From Rhodospirillales bacterium (GTDB lineage Bacteria; Pseudomonadota; Alphaproteobacteria; Rhodospirillales; Casp-alpha2): a DNA stretch of 41,052 bases. The notes beneath the pieces are model-generated. The model saw only the letters and a list, made by a program, of their open reading frames with translations, was not told the DNA's origin and made no database searches. Both the position numbers and the translations under genes were made by a program. This document shows, piece after piece, positions 14,232-22,624 of this stretch (its first letter is position 1; the number at the start of each line of letters is the position of its first letter). Where the stretch lies: NCBI GenBank assembly GCA_013203595.1, contig JABMNT010000153.1:1-41052 (forward strand), read 5' to 3'.

Positions 14232-16007
14232 ATGAAAAAGCCTAGCCTTACCTATTCGCGAATTTTGATTTCGCTGCGGCGCCTGCTCAGAAACGACCAT
14301 ATGGTGCTTTCTGCCCTGGGGCTGACTGTTGGCGCACTCACGGGGGCGGCGGTTGTCGGCTTTCGCGAACTGATTTCCACCATCCAACTGGCACTCTTTC
14401 ATTCCGGCTCGGAACGCCTGTTCCAGCATGCCCAGGAATTGCCCTGGTGGCAGATTATCCTGGTACCGGCCGGTGCCGGGCTGGTGGTTGGTCTGTTTAT
14501 CTACCACTTTATGCCGAACCGGCGGCCACAGGGGGTTGCCGATGTGATCGAGGCGAATGCCCTGCGCGGTGCCCGCATGTCTGCCAAAGCCGGTTTCGGT
14601 GCGGCGCTGGCAAGCGCCATTTCAATCGGTGCCGGGGCCTCGGTCGGCCGCGAAGGCCCGGCCGTGCATATCGGCGCGACCCTCGGTGCATGGATCAGCC
14701 AGCGCCTGCATCTCACGCGATCCCTGCGCCGTACGCTGCTGGGCTGTGGCGTTGGTGCCGCCGTTGCCGCCTCGTTTAACGCACCCATAGCCGGCGCGCT
14801 TTTCGCCAGCGAGGTGGTGGTCGGCCATTACGCGCTCAAGGCATTTGCCCCGATCGTCATCGCCAGTGTCGCGTCAACCGCCCTGTCACGGACTTTCTTT
14901 GGCGATTTTCCGGCCTTTGCCCTGGAATCAAAAATCATCGCTTCTTTCTGGGAATTTCCCGCATTTGTCCTGTTGGGAATTGTTGCCGGCGTTGCCTCCA
15001 TTGTCTTCATGCGCTCGATTTTTCTGGCGCAGGATCTGGCCGACAAAACCAAACTGCCGATATGGATCCGCCCCATGTTCGCCGGATTGCTGGTCGGCCT
15101 GATCGCTCTGTTTTACCCGCAGGTGTTAGGGGTCGGTTACGGGACCACGGAATCCGCCCTGCTTTTGCAGTTTGGTTTCTATACCATGGTCGTCATTGGC
15201 CTCGCCAAGATAGCCGCCACTGCGGCCTGCATCGGCTGGGGTTTTGGTGGCGGGGTTTTCAGCCCGTCCCTGGTGATCGGGGCCATGGTCGGCGGCTCCT
15301 TCGGCATTGTCGCCACCCATTTCTTTCCAGAGCTGTCTTCCGGACCTGGCGCCTATACCATCGTCGGTATGGGCGCTGTCGCCGCCGCCGTCATGGGAGC
15401 ACCGATTTCAACAACCCTGATTATCTTCGAGATGACCAGCAACTATGCCCTGACCCTGGGCGTGATGCTTGCCGTGGTGGCCTCGTCGGAAATAACCCAC
15501 CATTTCTTCGGCCGCTCGTTTTTCAACAATCAACTGAAGCGACGCGGAATCGATGTCAAGGAAGGCTTCGAGACCGAGATCATGAAGTCAATCCGGATCT
15601 CCGAGGTCTATTCCAATGACGGGGAATCGATCCAGATGAGCGAATGTTTGCAGGATCTGCGGATCAAACTGCAGAAATCACCGCTCGGAGAAATATTTGT
15701 GCTGCGCGATTCAGGCCAACTGTATGGGACCGTTACCTTTGCCGATTTGAGCGAGTCGGCTTTTGACCATGGCTTTGATGATCTGATCACGGCCAGCGAT
15801 GTGGCGCGCCTGCATCCGCCGGTTTTGACCGTGGCTGACGATCTCGAAACCGCCCTGTCGGTGATGCGGGATTCCGGCGAGGAACATATTGCCGTTGTCG
15901 ACGACACCGCATCGATGACCTTCAAAGGCTGTGTTCATCATCGCGAGGTGATGGCTGCCTACAACAAACTGTTGTTGCAGACCCGCCACGAAGAACACGG
16001 CGAATAG
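14232..16007 (+). CDS. ClC-family chloride channel/transporter with CBS pair
   Basis: This 591-residue protein has a ClC membrane core (about 20-435) and two C-terminal CBS domains (about 455-585). The gating glutamate is present (Glu141 in GREGP, 139-143), as is the third anion-site motif GGGVFSPSL. The first motif, normally GSGIP, is replaced by PQGVAD (99-104). At the proton-glutamate position of antiporters, the sequence reads LFASEVVV, placing Val195 there, as in vertebrate ClC channels. It is thus more likely a passive anion channel than a chloride/proton exchanger, by analogy. It starts 76 bases after phoB with no clear Pho box, so co-expression with the pho genes is only suggested by position. 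Confidence 0.9.
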   Translation: MKKPSLTYSRILISLRRLLRNDHMVLSALGLTVGALTGAAVVGFRELISTIQLALFHSGSERLFQHAQELPWWQIILVPAGAGLVVGLFIYHFMPNRRPQGVADVIEANALRGARMSAKAGFGAALASAISIGAGASVGREGPAVHIGATLGAWISQRLHLTRSLRRTLLGCGVGAAVAASFNAPIAGALFASEVVVGHYALKAFAPIVIASVASTALSRTFFGDFPAFALESKIIASFWEFPAFVLLGIVAGVASIVFMRSIFLAQDLADKTKLPIWIRPMFAGLLVGLIALFYPQVLGVGYGTTESALLLQFGFYTMVVIGLAKIAATAACIGWGFGGGVFSPSLVIGAMVGGSFGIVATHFFPELSSGPGAYTIVGMGAVAAAVMGAPISTTLIIFEMTSNYALTLGVMLAVVASSEITHHFFGRSFFNNQLKRRGIDVKEGFETEIMKSIRISEVYSNDGESIQMSECLQDLRIKLQKSPLGEIFVLRDSGQLYGTVTFADLSESAFDHGFDDLITASDVARLHPPVLTVADDLETALSVMRDSGEEHIAVVDDTASMTFKGCVHHREVMAAYNKLLLQTRHEEHGE

Positions 16008-16049: not shown

Positions 16050-17066
16050 TCAATGCGATTGTGGCTTGCTCAGCCAGTCGTGACGGTCCTCGGATGTTAC
16101 CGTTACTTTTTTAATTTCAAGCGACCCCACGCCGTGCGGCAGCAGGTCAATATCGATGGCCGCGCCGGCCGTGCCGCTGTCGCGGACGCGCTGATAGAAA
16201 TCGACCATGTCTGAAACCCGCCTGCCGCCAACCCCCATGACAATGTCGCCGGCTTTGATCCCGGCTCTCTGCCCGGGCCCGGCATCGGCAACCCGTGTCA
16301 CAATCACCCGGCCGCCCTGGGCATCTGTATAAATACCAAGCCAGGGCGGGGACGCCTGTGTGCGCCGGCCATTGGCCAGCAGATCGGCCAGTATCGGTTT
16401 CAGCAGATCCGTCGGCACGAACATATTGCCCGGTGTGAGGGCATCCGAACCCATCGCATCGCTGACAAACAGGGAGCCGATACCAACCAGTTGTCCCTGG
16501 TCATTGATTAACGCGGCACCGCCAAACTCCCGATGCGCAGGCATGGTATAAATGGCCCGCTCCAGCAGGTATTCCCAGCTCCCGGCAAAGGCCCGGCGGG
16601 ATACCACCTGCACCGGCGTGACCGGCCGTGATTCACCCAGCGACATGATCAGGGCAATCGACTTTTCCGACATCGCCGCCGATGACCCCAGTGTCAGCGG
16701 TCCGACGCCGAGCGGTGCAAGGGCCCGCACCAATCCGAAGCCGCTGGTGTGATCGTAGGCAACAGGGGTTGCCGGGATGGTGTTGCCCAGAGCCGTCACC
16801 ACCGAGGTTTGATCGGCTTCCATAACCAGATAACCAATGGTCAGAATCAGGCCTTTGTCATCGATCACCACACCGCTTCCCTGGCGCGTCGTTCCCAGCC
16901 TGTCGGCGGTCCGCGCTGCCGACGGTACCTGGGCCTGCACCATAACCACCGATTTGAGAACTTCCTTGAAATCAACCGCGGCCCTGAGCGGAGCGACAAC
17001 GCATATACCGAGAAAAACCGACAGGATCAGGGTCTGAAATGTATGGGTCAACCATCTGCGCAGCAT
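16050..17066 (-). CDS. HtrA/DegP-like secreted protein without catalytic triad (pseudoprotease)
   Basis: The 338-residue protein has a signal peptide (about 1-30, ending PLRA), a trypsin-like domain (about 35-230) and one PDZ domain (about 242-322, with WLGIYTDA and AGIKAGDIVMGVGG). The domain layout is that of HtrA/DegQ proteases. However, the three catalytic places read differently: ILTIGYLVMEA has Tyr79 for His, HTSGFGLVRA has Gly109 for Asp, and REFGGAALIN has Phe181 for Ser. It should therefore bind but not cleave. I chose ATG 17066, five bases after AGGAGG, over the GTG three bases earlier. It is divergent from uvrD and convergent with the ClC gene. Confidence 0.85.
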   Translation of the reverse strand: MLRRWLTHTFQTLILSVFLGICVVAPLRAAVDFKEVLKSVVMVQAQVPSAARTADRLGTTRQGSGVVIDDKGLILTIGYLVMEADQTSVVTALGNTIPATPVAYDHTSGFGLVRALAPLGVGPLTLGSSAAMSEKSIALIMSLGESRPVTPVQVVSRRAFAGSWEYLLERAIYTMPAHREFGGAALINDQGQLVGIGSLFVSDAMGSDALTPGNMFVPTDLLKPILADLLANGRRTQASPPWLGIYTDAQGGRVIVTRVADAGPGQRAGIKAGDIVMGVGGRRVSDMVDFYQRVRDSGTAGAAIDIDLLPHGVGSLEIKKVTVTSEDRHDWLSKPQSH

Positions 17067-17253
17067 CACGACCTCCTTACGGCCTCATTTTCAAGCAGCG
17101 AAGTATATCACAAGCAGATCGCGGCGTTGGTAAACTTGCAGTGAATGGGTGGGAATTTCAGGCCATGCGGACAACTGGCGATTTCTTACCTGCCTGCTCA
17201 TTTATCTGCATCTGTTGATGGCTCATCCGGGCGGGCATGCTATAAAACGTTCC

Positions 17254-19563
17254 ATGTCCGACCCTTTTGATTTAGCCGCCCCGTCCGAAGCCGCCCCTGA
17301 TCCGCATCCCGCGGCCCCCGCACCTATGGCTGGCGGCACTGCATCCATGGACTATTTGCAGAACCTGAACGAGACCCAGCTCGAAGCCGTGCAAACCGTG
17401 GACGGACCGCTGCTTGTCTTGGCCGGTGCGGGGACCGGGAAAACCCGGGTCCTGACCACCCGCTTGGCCCATATCCTGCTGCAGGGCAAGGCCCGGCCCT
17501 GGGAAGTGCTGGCGGTCACCTTTACCAACAAGGCGGCCCGGGAAATGAAAGAGCGCGTCGCGTCGCTGATCCACCGCCCCGTCGAAGGCTGGTGGGTCGG
17601 CACGTTTCATGCCGTTGGTGCGCGGATGCTGCGGGCCAATGCGGAAGCCGCCGGGCTCAGATCCAACTTCACGATCCTCGATACGGATGACCAGATCCGG
17701 CTGATCAAACAACTGATCGACGTCCATGAGATTGATGAAAAGCGCTGGCCGGCCCGGGTTATTGCCGGCACCATCCAGCGCTGGAAAGATCGTGGGCTGA
17801 TGCCGGACAAAGTGACGCCGGGTGAAGGCAGCGATGCCGACGAGGGCCGCATCCTGTCTCTGTATGGCGAATACCAGCAGCGGCTTGCGGTTTTGAATGC
17901 GGCCGATTTCGGCGATTTACTGCTGCTTTGTCTGAAACTGTTTCAGGACCATCCGCAGATTCTTGCCGACTACCAGAACCAGTTCCGCTACGTCCTGGTC
18001 GACGAATACCAGGATACCAACGTCGCCCAGTACCTGTGGCTGCGGTTGTTGGCGCAAAAGCACAAGAACATCTGCTGCGTCGGTGATGATGATCAGTCGA
18101 TCTATTCCTGGCGCGGTGCCGAGGTCGGCAATATCCTGCGCTTCGACGAGGATTTTTCTGATGCCGCCATTGTCCGCCTGGAACGCAACTACCGCTCAAC
18201 CCCGCATATTCTGGCGGCCGCATCAGGTCTGATTTCCCATAACGAGGGACGGCTCGGCAAGACGCTGTGGACCGACGCCAACGACGGCGAGCCGGTTCAG
18301 GTGCGCGGTGTCTGGGACGGGGAGGAAGAGGCCCGCGTGGTCGGTGATGCGATCGAGACCCTGCACCGCAAGGACCATGCGCTTAACGAAATCGCTATCC
18401 TGGTGCGCGCCAGCTTCCAGACCCGCGAATTTGAAGAATGCATGATTACGCTCGGTGTTCCCTACCGGATCATCGGCGGGGCACGCTTTTATGAGCGTCA
18501 GGAAATCCGCGACGCGATCGCTTATCTGCGGGTAACCGTGCAGCCCGATGATGATCTGGCCTTTGAACGGATCATCAATCTGCCCAAGCGTGGCATTGGT
18601 AAGGCGGCCATGCAGACCATTCATCAGTTTGCCCGCGCCGAGGGCATATCACTGACCCGGGCGGTGCTGCGGCTGGTTGAAACCGACGAGTTCAGACCGA
18701 AGGTGCGCGCTACCCTGGCCGCCCTGATGAATGACTTCGAGCGCTGGCGCAAACTGGTATCGGTGATGCATCATCCGGAACTGGTCGGCACCATCCTGGA
18801 CGAGAGCGGTTACACCGCCATGTGGCGCGAAAACAAAGCCACCGACGCACCGGGCCGTCTCGACAACCTGAAAGAACTGGTTGTCGCTCTGGAGGACTTC
18901 GAAAACATCGGCGGCTTTCTCGAACACGTCAGTCTGGTGATGGAAAACGAAGAATCCCAGGAACTGGACAAGGTCACCATGATGACCCTGCACGGGGCCA
19001 AGGGGCTGGAGTTTGAAACCGTATTTCTGCCGGGCTGGGAAGACGGCCTGTTCCCGCACCAGCGCTCGCTCGATGACAGCGGCGCGTCAGGTCTGGAAGA
19101 AGAACGCAGGCTGGCCTATGTCGGCCTGACCCGGGCCCGCAAGCGGGCAACCATTCTCTATGCCTCCAATCGCCGGATCTACGGCAAATGGCAAAGCGCC
19201 TATCCGTCGCGGTTCATCGACGAGCTGCCGGTCGAACATATCGCGCATACCGCCAACCCCGGCCTCGGCGATACCGGGCGCTCGGTTGAACCGTCGTTCG
19301 GCTTTGATGCCCCGGCTGAATTTCGCCAGTCCACCTGGGCCGCCCGGCGCGCCGCCGCCCAGCCAAAACGGCGGACGGAGAATCTGTCCTGGGCGGACAG
19401 CAGCGGGTCCGACAACGGCCCGGCCTTTACCCTGAACGAGCGTATTTTTCACCAGAAATTCGGTTACGGAAAAATCATCGCCATTGACGGCAACAAGCTG
19501 GAAGTGGCCTTCGAGAAAGCCGGCACCAAAAAAGTCGTCGACAGTTTTGTAGAACGGACCTGA
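17254..19563 (+). CDS. uvrD: UvrD/PcrA-type DNA helicase II
   Basis: The product (769 residues from this start) is a superfamily 1A 3'-5' helicase acting in nucleotide excision and mismatch repair. It has Walker A AGAGTGKT (57-64), motif Ia TFTNKAAREMKERV, motif II VDEYQDTN, motif III DDDQSIYSWRGA, motif V MTLHGAKGLEF and motif VI YVGLTRARKR. The C-terminal Tudor-like module ends IFHQKFGYGKIIAIDGNKLE, the part that contacts RNA polymerase in relatives. I chose the ATG opening MSDPFDLA because alphaproteobacterial UvrD proteins start that way. The in-frame region before it has no sign of coding. The ribosome site is weak. prmA follows seven bases later. Confidence 0.95.
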   Translation: MSDPFDLAAPSEAAPDPHPAAPAPMAGGTASMDYLQNLNETQLEAVQTVDGPLLVLAGAGTGKTRVLTTRLAHILLQGKARPWEVLAVTFTNKAAREMKERVASLIHRPVEGWWVGTFHAVGARMLRANAEAAGLRSNFTILDTDDQIRLIKQLIDVHEIDEKRWPARVIAGTIQRWKDRGLMPDKVTPGEGSDADEGRILSLYGEYQQRLAVLNAADFGDLLLLCLKLFQDHPQILADYQNQFRYVLVDEYQDTNVAQYLWLRLLAQKHKNICCVGDDDQSIYSWRGAEVGNILRFDEDFSDAAIVRLERNYRSTPHILAAASGLISHNEGRLGKTLWTDANDGEPVQVRGVWDGEEEARVVGDAIETLHRKDHALNEIAILVRASFQTREFEECMITLGVPYRIIGGARFYERQEIRDAIAYLRVTVQPDDDLAFERIINLPKRGIGKAAMQTIHQFARAEGISLTRAVLRLVETDEFRPKVRATLAALMNDFERWRKLVSVMHHPELVGTILDESGYTAMWRENKATDAPGRLDNLKELVVALEDFENIGGFLEHVSLVMENEESQELDKVTMMTLHGAKGLEFETVFLPGWEDGLFPHQRSLDDSGASGLEEERRLAYVGLTRARKRATILYASNRRIYGKWQSAYPSRFIDELPVEHIAHTANPGLGDTGRSVEPSFGFDAPAEFRQSTWAARRAAAQPKRRTENLSWADSSGSDNGPAFTLNERIFHQKFGYGKIIAIDGNKLEVAFEKAGTKKVVDSFVERT

Positions 19564-20567: not shown

Positions 20568-22481
20568 CTAGCTCTTTTTACCCGGCTGAAAACTCTGGGA
20601 GTACGGCGACTGCTGGCCCGGGTCCGACAGCTTCTTCTGTCCCCGGGGTGCGATTTTATGGACGATGTCATCGAGCATGGATTGCAGGTATTCAGACTGC
20701 GACAACAGCTTGTTGGTCGCTTCCAGGGCCTGGGTGGAGGCGGTGGCGCCAATTTCGTCGGCCATGGCGGTCACGTTCTGCATGGATATGCGGATCGCCT
20801 GTACGGTGCGTTCGGCGCGTTCGGTGATATCACGGATCGCATCAAAACGCTGGGCCAGGCCGTGATCGACAAACGGGCCTTCCGCGTGTCGCCGGCCTTC
20901 TTCGTTGAAGGGAATCAGGTTTTCCGTATCCATCGGACGGCCGTCGCGGCTGGTCGTATGGAAGGCCAGCAGGTTGGTCTGATCGCGCACCGAGGTGACC
21001 AGACCGCCCAGGTTTTCGAGCTGCCCGGTGGCCTCCTGCAACGACATGATCAATTGCTCGGTGCGCTCAACATCGGCGGCTGCGGCCGTGACATATTCGC
21101 TGAAATGAGCGAGCTGCTGGCTGACCGAGGAGATCGGGCCCATGCCCACATTGGGGGCCAGGGGTGAGGGAATATAACGCGGCTCATAACCGGCCACTTC
21201 CTCCGGCTCCGGCTCCCGTTCCGGCGCCGGTTCGCGTTCCGGAATTGGCTCGGGCGGCAGTTCCGGGGCTGGCATATAGGCTTCCGGTGGTTCCGGTTCG
21301 GCGGCAATATCGGCGATGAACGCCGCTTTCGCCGTTGCAACCGCCGTCGCCGCGCGCACATCTGACTCGGCAATGACCGATTTGAGTTTGCGCTGGGTTT
21401 GATCCAGTTCCTGGCGCAATTGATCGAGCAGGTTCAAATCATCCGCCCAGCGATCGAGCGCCCGGGCCGCCTGTCCGACCGCGTCAATATTGCCGCGCCC
21501 CGGTACAATCACATTGCGTTCGCCCGCGGCAATGCGCTGGGCCGAGATCGCCAGCGCGCGAATTCCGTTCGACATGCTGCGCATCAGCAGCAGACCGACA
21601 AAAATCAGCCACAGCAGAATTGCGGCGCTGCCGCCGGCGATGGTGTAGCGGGCAAAGGCCTGGATTTTCTCAAGAGCCCGGGTTGCCGAAACGGTCTGAT
21701 CCCGGGAAAAGCTGCCCAGCCGCTCAAGGCTGGGGGCCACATAGGCCAGGATATCGTTAAACCGCTCGGTTTCACTATCAAGGGCAAAGCGCTGGTTGAT
21801 CAACGTCAACATGTCGGTTTCATGGGATTTCAACAGATCCGTCATGTCCGCCTTGGGCCGGGGCGCAATTTCCGCGGATTCGAGAAATGCATGCAGGGTT
21901 GCATAGCGGTTTTGAATTTCATCAACGCCCTGGCGAAAGCCCGACGACAGGGTTTCCTTGCCCTGGCTGTTGATCCGGGAGATCTGATCGGCCAGATTGG
22001 CATGTCCGGCCTGGCGAAACCGGATTTGCAGGGTTTGGGTTGTTTCCTGCAAACGGGCACTGATCCCCGATTCATCGGCGATGCCAAGGACCCGTTCAGC
22101 CCTTACCACATCGACAAACTGTTCGTCATACTGGACCAGACCATCGCGCAGGGTGGCGATGGTCTGGCGAACCGGCATGCTTTCCGGCAGTCTGTACAGT
22201 TTGTCCAAAGCCTTCGAGACATCGTTGATGTCCTGATCAAAAGCCTCCGCCGCGGTCACATCCTTGCTGAGCAGGAATTGTTTTTCCTGGCTGTTGATCT
22301 TGGCGACGCCCGTTTCAATGCGCCCGACCAGTTCCGCCACGTTCTGGGAGTTGCGCCAGACGGTCAGCGTCCGGTCGACCCGCTGGTCCACATAAATATA
22401 CATACCGGCAAAAACCACCAGGGCGGCAAAACTGAAAATCAGGTATATATTGATACGCGTCGACAACCGCATACCACCCAT
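20568..22481 (-). CDS. MCP-like membrane receptor with degenerate signalling tip
   Basis: This 637-residue protein has membrane helices at about 11-32 and 279-300 that flank a helical periplasmic domain of about 245 residues, resembling HBM-type sensor domains. A HAMP-like region (about 301-350), a Pro/Glu-rich linker (about 395-435) and a methyl-accepting-like coiled coil follow. The coiled coil keeps DQTNLLAF at the hairpin tip (about 500-507). The return strand, however, lacks the canonical alanine-rich helix and has TENLIPFNEE instead, so normal CheA/CheW docking is doubtful. The start is uncertain: a perfect TATAAT at 22600 overlaps the longest ATG (22601), so I chose the later ATG at 22481. 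ATG 22472 is another option. Confidence 0.75.
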   Translation of the reverse strand: MGGMRLSTRINIYLIFSFAALVVFAGMYIYVDQRVDRTLTVWRNSQNVAELVGRIETGVAKINSQEKQFLLSKDVTAAEAFDQDINDVSKALDKLYRLPESMPVRQTIATLRDGLVQYDEQFVDVVRAERVLGIADESGISARLQETTQTLQIRFRQAGHANLADQISRINSQGKETLSSGFRQGVDEIQNRYATLHAFLESAEIAPRPKADMTDLLKSHETDMLTLINQRFALDSETERFNDILAYVAPSLERLGSFSRDQTVSATRALEKIQAFARYTIAGGSAAILLWLIFVGLLLMRSMSNGIRALAISAQRIAAGERNVIVPGRGNIDAVGQAARALDRWADDLNLLDQLRQELDQTQRKLKSVIAESDVRAATAVATAKAAFIADIAAEPEPPEAYMPAPELPPEPIPEREPAPEREPEPEEVAGYEPRYIPSPLAPNVGMGPISSVSQQLAHFSEYVTAAAADVERTEQLIMSLQEATGQLENLGGLVTSVRDQTNLLAFHTTSRDGRPMDTENLIPFNEEGRRHAEGPFVDHGLAQRFDAIRDITERAERTVQAIRISMQNVTAMADEIGATASTQALEATNKLLSQSEYLQSMLDDIVHKIAPRGQKKLSDPGQQSPYSQSFQPGKKS

Positions 22482-22598
22482 ATGGATGCGGTCGGCAAAA
22501 GGGCCGTTGCCGAGATCCAGAAAATTGTGTTCCGTATCGGCATTACGCCCCTGCTGACGTGGCGTTTGTTCTCGCGTTTTGGGCACAACTCTAACCCC

Positions 22599-22624
22599 CA
22601 TTATAACTGGGGGAAAGTTATAAC
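22599..22624 (-). promoter_or_regulatory. Candidate promoter region of the MCP-like gene
   Basis: On the minus strand a perfect TATAAT (22600-22605) lies ahead of the MCP-like gene. The heptamer TTATAAC occurs twice (22601-22607 and 22618-22624), 17 bases apart. A CCCCCA/TGGGGG inverted repeat brackets the first copy. No good -35 hexamer is visible at the expected distance, so an activator may be needed. This is the 285-base divergent gap before the small gene at 22767. Confidence 0.4.

Follow-up and report, generated by a model that had tools for sequence, protein, structure and literature searches.

The sequence analyzed here, referred to as the window, is a 41,052-nucleotide stretch of a Rhodospirillales genome (contig JABMNT010000153.1). 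Positions 16050 to 17066 of its reverse strand encode a predicted HtrA-like pseudoprotease of 338 amino acids, with the ATG start codon at 17064 to 17066 and the stop codon at 16050 to 16052. Direct reading of the sequence places a Shine-Dalgarno motif, AAGGAGG, at 17072 to 17078 on the same strand, 5 nt before the ATG. The open reading frame lister begins at a GTG one codon upstream, and its residue numbers are one higher than those used in a preliminary description of this DNA. A promoter scan at the gene found no site, and terminator-like sites there were no commoner than in shuffled sequences. The encoded protein has three parts, all on the reverse strand. A signal peptide covers residues 1 to about 29 (16980 to 17066) by hydropathy, with the cleavage site placed by eye; its best 12-residue mean hydropathy was 3.09. 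A trypsin-like domain without a catalytic triad is indicated by Pfam, HMM alignment, and the predicted structure, the Trypsin_2 match spanning residues 63 to 196 (16479 to 16880). A PDZ domain (residues 242 to 305; 16152 to 16343) was assigned by Pfam and starts with a conserved P-W-x-G, of which P242, W243, and G245 (339 numbering) are at least 95% conserved in 108 family members. The Trypsin_2 (51.8 bits) and PDZ_2 (32.5 bits) scores both exceed the Pfam cut-offs. Thus, the signal peptide and PDZ domain that the preliminary description called intact are both present.

The gene is flanked by two forward-strand genes whose context is conserved in the clade: one for a PcrA/UvrD-type helicase (17149 to 19563), transcribed divergently, and one for a ClC chloride channel (14232 to 16007), transcribed convergently. 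Between 11862 and 20461 the order is pstB, phoU, phoB, the ClC channel gene, the pseudoprotease gene, pcrA/uvrD, and prmA, and this order is partly kept in several genera of the order. Further along, a reverse-strand 677-amino-acid open reading frame (20568 to 22601) had no Pfam match at 0.001 and a weak match to the MtrB histidine kinase (19.6 bits); a 677-amino-acid frame occupies the same place in a relative of the same genus (L075).

Structure prediction, which the preliminary description had proposed as a check, gave a confident predicted HtrA fold composed of a chymotrypsin-like domain and a PDZ domain. The single-chain AlphaFold2 model of the window protein had a pLDDT of 92 and a pTM of 0.86, with a low-confidence helix (pLDDT 60 to 66) at residues 3 to 21. 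The best structural match was DegP24 (Z score of 26.1, rmsd of 8.2 Å over 274 residues, 23% identity). Scores of many other HtrAs lay within 1 Z unit of this value, in effect a tie, and Foldseek agreed. A difference in how the two domains are positioned probably explains the large rmsd. The best 50 Foldseek rows and the best 50 VIA rows were HtrA/Deg proteins except Rv3671c, another trypsin-like protease. DegP, DegQ, and DegS belong to MEROPS family S1C, and DegP and DegQ carry two PDZ domains. The window protein resembles these three in having a signal peptide, a chymotrypsin-like domain, and a PDZ domain, of which it carries one; it differs from them in lacking the catalytic His, Asp, and Ser and the oxyanion Gly. 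Against the Do-family model TIGR02037 it scores 64.3 bits, compared with a cut-off of 416.2.

Two alignments, one made with MAFFT to HtrAs of the source genome and one made by HMM to solved HtrAs, agree on the register of the active-site segments. In the window protein, TNNHVV of HtrA is replaced by TIGYLV, TDLA by SGFG, and GNSGG by EFGGA. Both alignments confirm two replacements reported in the preliminary description, Tyr79 (16830 to 16832) at the catalytic His position and Gly109 (16740 to 16742) at the catalytic Asp position. The third had been given as Phe181, which is one residue off. In the MAFFT and profile alignments, Phe181 (16524 to 16526) aligns with the Asn of GNSGG and Gly182 (16521 to 16523) with the catalytic Ser, an assignment also favored because 34 of 108 relatives keep Ser in exactly that column. 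The claim that the whole triad has been replaced therefore stands as Tyr/Gly/Gly. The oxyanion-hole Gly193 is lost as well, its position being occupied by Glu180 (16527 to 16529). An intact triad elsewhere in the alignment had been named as counterevidence; neither His nor Lys occurs among the 41 positions that reach 95% conservation in the 108 members, which leaves no room for a conserved Ser-Lys dyad or for a conserved triad that has migrated, and a migrated triad was rejected. Judged by its residues, the window protein, like the rest of its family, is predicted to be unable to hydrolyze peptides as a serine protease.

The same replacements were found throughout a family of 108 nonredundant members. 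Tyr occupies the His position in 107 members and Cys in 1, with His in none, and Gly occupies the Asp position in all 108. The Ser position holds Gly in 67, Ser in 34, Ala in 6, and Val in 1. The preceding residue is always aromatic or His (Trp in 58, His in 27, Phe in 13, and Tyr in 10), 25 of the 34 Ser-keeping members having a His-Ser dipeptide, and a residue other than Gly stands at the oxyanion position in 105 of 108. Four extra members outside the 108 (L013, L023, L031, and L033) carry the same His and Asp replacements. Since these changes are common to all 108 members and to 4 more, they lie beyond chance, and they are not private decay of the window gene. The set comprises the window protein, 36 members from a beta-rich scan of named genome contigs, 39 more, 29 from a search of 398 genomes, and 3 others; because 36 of the 108 come from that scan, the proportions of Ser, Gly, and Ala reflect sampling. 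Fifteen positions are at least 95% conserved in the family yet absent from four aligned HtrAs, and 11 of these adjoin, in the sequence, the former active-site segments, those that line the cleft.

Members were found in the source genome, in its relatives, and well beyond them. The source genome encodes intact HtrAs and also a second family copy with 41% identity to the window protein and the same Tyr and Gly. Matches at an E value of 1e-20 or lower occurred in 42 of 61 genomes (the source and 60 relatives), and the nearest relative of the window protein is 73% identical over the domain. The scan of named genome contigs returned 39 loci, many of them betaproteobacterial, of which one (L074) encodes a standard HtrA and two others are duplicates of G-handle loci. 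When a profile of 45 members was run against 398 Pseudomonadota genomes, 35 genomes, the source among them, scored 364 bits or more and the next match scored 122; the absence of anything between these values marks a discrete family. The count of 35 in 398 is a lower bound, because the best five candidates per genome were scored. Twenty-six plasmid records also matched (Neorhizobium, 8; Rhizobium, 8; Azospirillum, 7; Phyllobacterium, 2; Pararhizobium, 1), and the relatives from the four rhizobial genera (all but Azospirillum) are 40 to 46% identical to the window protein. The gene is named in 6 of the 26 records, five times as an S1C family serine protease and once as a signal protein PDZ, the rest being unannotated at the match. 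The two plasmid entries that were examined have the Tyr and Gly, start right before the domain, and lack a signal peptide. A very small complete genome from the same class (G417, one contig of 1.2 Mb) encodes one divergent, signal-bearing member (L145) with Tyr/Gly/Ala; it also carries one DegP-family protease above the cut-off.

In a tree, 30 sampled members formed one group on a long stem, set apart with 100/100 support from 26 HtrA rows that have an intact triad. The 26 rows, which represent 25 different proteins picked mostly as near matches, all have His, Asp, and Ser. Most simply, His and Asp were lost once on the family stem, before the family spread. Ser states changed at least 13 times on a 91-row tree built without the triad columns. 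A Ser-bearing row stands at the base of the trees but differs between them (L143 in one, L092 in the tree of 30 members and 26 HtrAs), with weak support; for this reason, the later loss of Ser, on several occasions, is likely rather than proven. Nei-Gojobori dN/dS ratios were 0.046 to 0.223 in 21 nonoverlapping pairs of relatives at 80 to 98.5% identity, a 22nd close pair being saturated; these pairs do not include the window gene, as no fetched relative exceeds 80% identity to it. The preliminary description argued for a selected loss of proteolysis, and at the level of the family such a loss, as predicted from sequence, is well supported by replacements fixed in 108 members, the low dN/dS range, and the fully supported split. 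Homology, lost catalytic residues, and selection (in relatives' pairs), which together form the general criterion for an HtrA-derived pseudoprotease, were thus all found.

The compartment of these proteins was approached with a crude screen for a hydrophobic 12-mer between the upstream in-frame stop and the domain. Of the 108 members, 39 have a signal-like stretch, 59 do not, and 10 are unclear; the value for the window protein was the second highest of the screen. Inspection by eye showed that two members (L057 and L122) were counted as signal bearing because of a stretch lying far upstream and that L123, scored as lacking a signal, seems to have one. Just 18 to 23 residues separate the upstream stop from the domain in L138, L140, and L144. 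Signal state changed five times on a tree of 81 scored rows. The model of the signal-less L061 (pLDDT 93.5) arranges its strands and helices in almost the same order as the window model. The second copy in the source genome (L107, 8410 to 9378, reverse strand, contig C286) has no signal peptide, so this genome encodes one predicted exported copy and one signal-less copy. Nine base pairs downstream of that second copy, on the same strand, lies an alkB-type 2OG-Fe(II) oxygenase gene. The envelope role put forward in the preliminary description does not hold when extended to the whole family: because about half of the relatives lack a signal peptide on this crude screen, an envelope chaperone cannot cover them all. 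The window copy, which is predicted to be exported, may possibly act as an envelope scaffold or chaperone or as a competitor of DegP.

Gene neighborhoods were compared across the family, with neighbor clusters named by the Pfam hits of one representative each. Among the 23 loci of the window's clade (clade A), pcrA/uvrD is present in 21 and divergent within 500 bp in 17, and the ClC channel gene is present in 18 and convergent within 200 bp in 16. In a second clade, alkB is present in 9 of 18 loci, and in 8 it starts no more than 200 bp after the family gene in the same orientation; a 19th locus of this clade, L104, was missed by clustering. In 11 betaproteobacterial loci, ilvD lies just before the gene, and a gene for a DUF255 thioredoxin-like protein follows in 8, as the next open reading frame in 7 and the next but one in 1. 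The ilvD-adjacent members (L041, L042, L044 to L050, L054, and L055) keep Ser, as HSGAAL, and lack a signal peptide. Twenty further loci mostly have no shared neighbors. A DUF1800 gene adjoins the family gene in L088, L091, L094, and L102, which span both main clades, and a DUF1501 gene is also there in three of the four. Gene order is kept within clades but points to no pathway, and a shared gene partner was rejected, since the neighbors change from clade to clade.

The cutting machinery has long been lost and the fold and PDZ domain have been kept, so the family probably acts by binding and not by cutting. On balance, these features make it probable that this is an old, selected family of HtrA-derived pseudoproteases kept for binding, acting as a noncatalytic adaptor or holdase. 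The PDZ domain would capture C-terminal or exposed segments, and the remodeled dead cleft would hold or seat a polypeptide without cutting it. The window copy would act in the periplasm, and the signal-less copies, including the second copy of the source genome, would act in the cytoplasm. Three points weigh against binding. Fixation would also be expected if the role were purely structural or regulatory, Ser is kept by one third of the 108 members (a proportion affected by sampling), and gene context differs between clades.

A regulatory role would have the dead subunit mix into trimers with, compete with, or activate a DegP/DegQ-type protease. There are precedents for this: MamO is reported to activate MamE-dependent proteolysis, and the MamE family is reported to have lost function after duplication three times (PMC4794232), and an inactive domain of plant Deg7 is reported to be involved in trimerization (PMC3473262). 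The second domain of Deg7 and Deg16 resemble the family described here in that genomes have retained them as Deg/HtrA domains despite mutated triads; these proteins differ in being eukaryotic and in having single residues changed or domains within larger proteins, and they are likened by description (PMC3473262). A DegP-family protease scored above the curated cut-off in all 10 member genomes tested, including the 1.2-Mb genome, where it is present in one copy. This co-occurrence permits a paired role, short of showing it, and says little because all 14 control genomes have matches, although only 4 of the 14 pass the cut-off. An intact DegP-like gene with TNNHV/GNSGG motifs is located some 4.6 kb downstream, in the same orientation, in L057 (6968 to 8347, forward) and L058 (11536 to 12897, forward), and an HtrA with TNAHV/GGSGG motifs lies about 4.7 kb upstream in L101 (508 to 1497, reverse). 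However, among 127 partly overlapping loci, no more than these 3 have an intact-motif HtrA within the mapped stretch, and opposite-strand genes intervene in L057 and L058. The signal-less members would also be in the wrong compartment for DegP. Regulation of an active HtrA is rather unlikely.

The dead cleft could instead have become a ligand or metal site, as has been reported for MamO, whose dead trypsin fold binds metal (passages of PMC4794232). In favor of this, the family-specific conserved residues cluster, by sequence, around the former active site. For MamO, it was also argued from structure that a non-Gly residue at position 193 blocks the oxyanion hole (PMC4794232). The window protein resembles MamO in its HtrA derivation, its degenerate triad, and Glu at 193, corresponding to MamO E223. 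In loop L1 the two agree in part: each has a bulky aromatic residue there, but it is Trp at 192 in MamO and stands at 194 in the family (Trp, His, Phe, or Tyr in 108 of 108 members). The window protein departs from MamO in ending after the PDZ domain, with no counterpart of the C-terminal TauE domain. MamO H148, the His before the Asp position, has no counterpart either (Thr in 81 and Ser in 28 of 109 rows, the window being counted twice), and no His is conserved at 95% in the 108 members. In the NCBIfam MamO search, the window protein had no match at 1e-3, and 5 of 45 members matched weakly (best, 1.2e-4). No MamE above the cut-off was found in the source genome or in 14 control genomes, a set without a magnetotactic genome, and the window neighbors tested (pcrA/uvrD, ClC, phoB, phoU, pstB, and prmA) gave no magnetosome context. 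Membership in MamO was rejected on the tested motifs, the MamO-model search, and the absence of a MamE match. By analogy with MamO, a metal or ligand site is conceivable, and we regard it as improbable.

Residual activity as a hydrolase or esterase, through some unusual mechanism, would draw on the 34 members in which the catalytic Ser is retained (as His-Ser in 25); with Gly there in 67 members including the window protein, the oxyanion Gly gone from 105 of 108, and no conserved His, Lys, or Asp partner at the old positions, such activity is very improbable. A decaying gene without function, which might be suspected because 19 of the 61 genomes have no match at the threshold used and some have only the second type, is scarcely credible given the intact frame, the strong Shine-Dalgarno sequence, and a dN/dS well below 1 in 21 relatives' pairs, and it was rejected on those ratios and the deep conservation of the family.

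HtrA pseudoproteases are a known kind of protein. In a 2008 survey of 247 prokaryotic trypsin-like proteins, 2 were counted as inactive homologues (PMC2605481). Among the matches listed in a search of the open-access literature, this family was not found described, nor was any other of such breadth that combines a near-invariant Tyr and an invariant Gly with Ser-keeping members and with exported and signal-less forms. Tentatively, these features may be drawn together. The family, discrete and widespread (about 9% of the Pseudomonadota genomes that were sampled), may descend from one ancestral loss of His and Asp and have divided into exported and cytoplasmic forms, serving as a general nonproteolytic reader of C termini or unfolded segments that left the envelope, with the Ser-bearing members as surviving intermediates. 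If the pseudoprotease interpretation is correct, about 1 in 12 of the Pseudomonadota genomes sampled (34 of 397, the source not counted) carry a noncatalytic HtrA that is easily counted as a protease, as in five of the six named plasmid entries, which call such proteins serine proteases. The family would then offer natural stages of triad loss, from Tyr/Gly/Ser to Tyr/Gly/Gly, and the pairing of exported and signal-less copies in one genome would make it possible to ask what the HtrA fold does without cutting.
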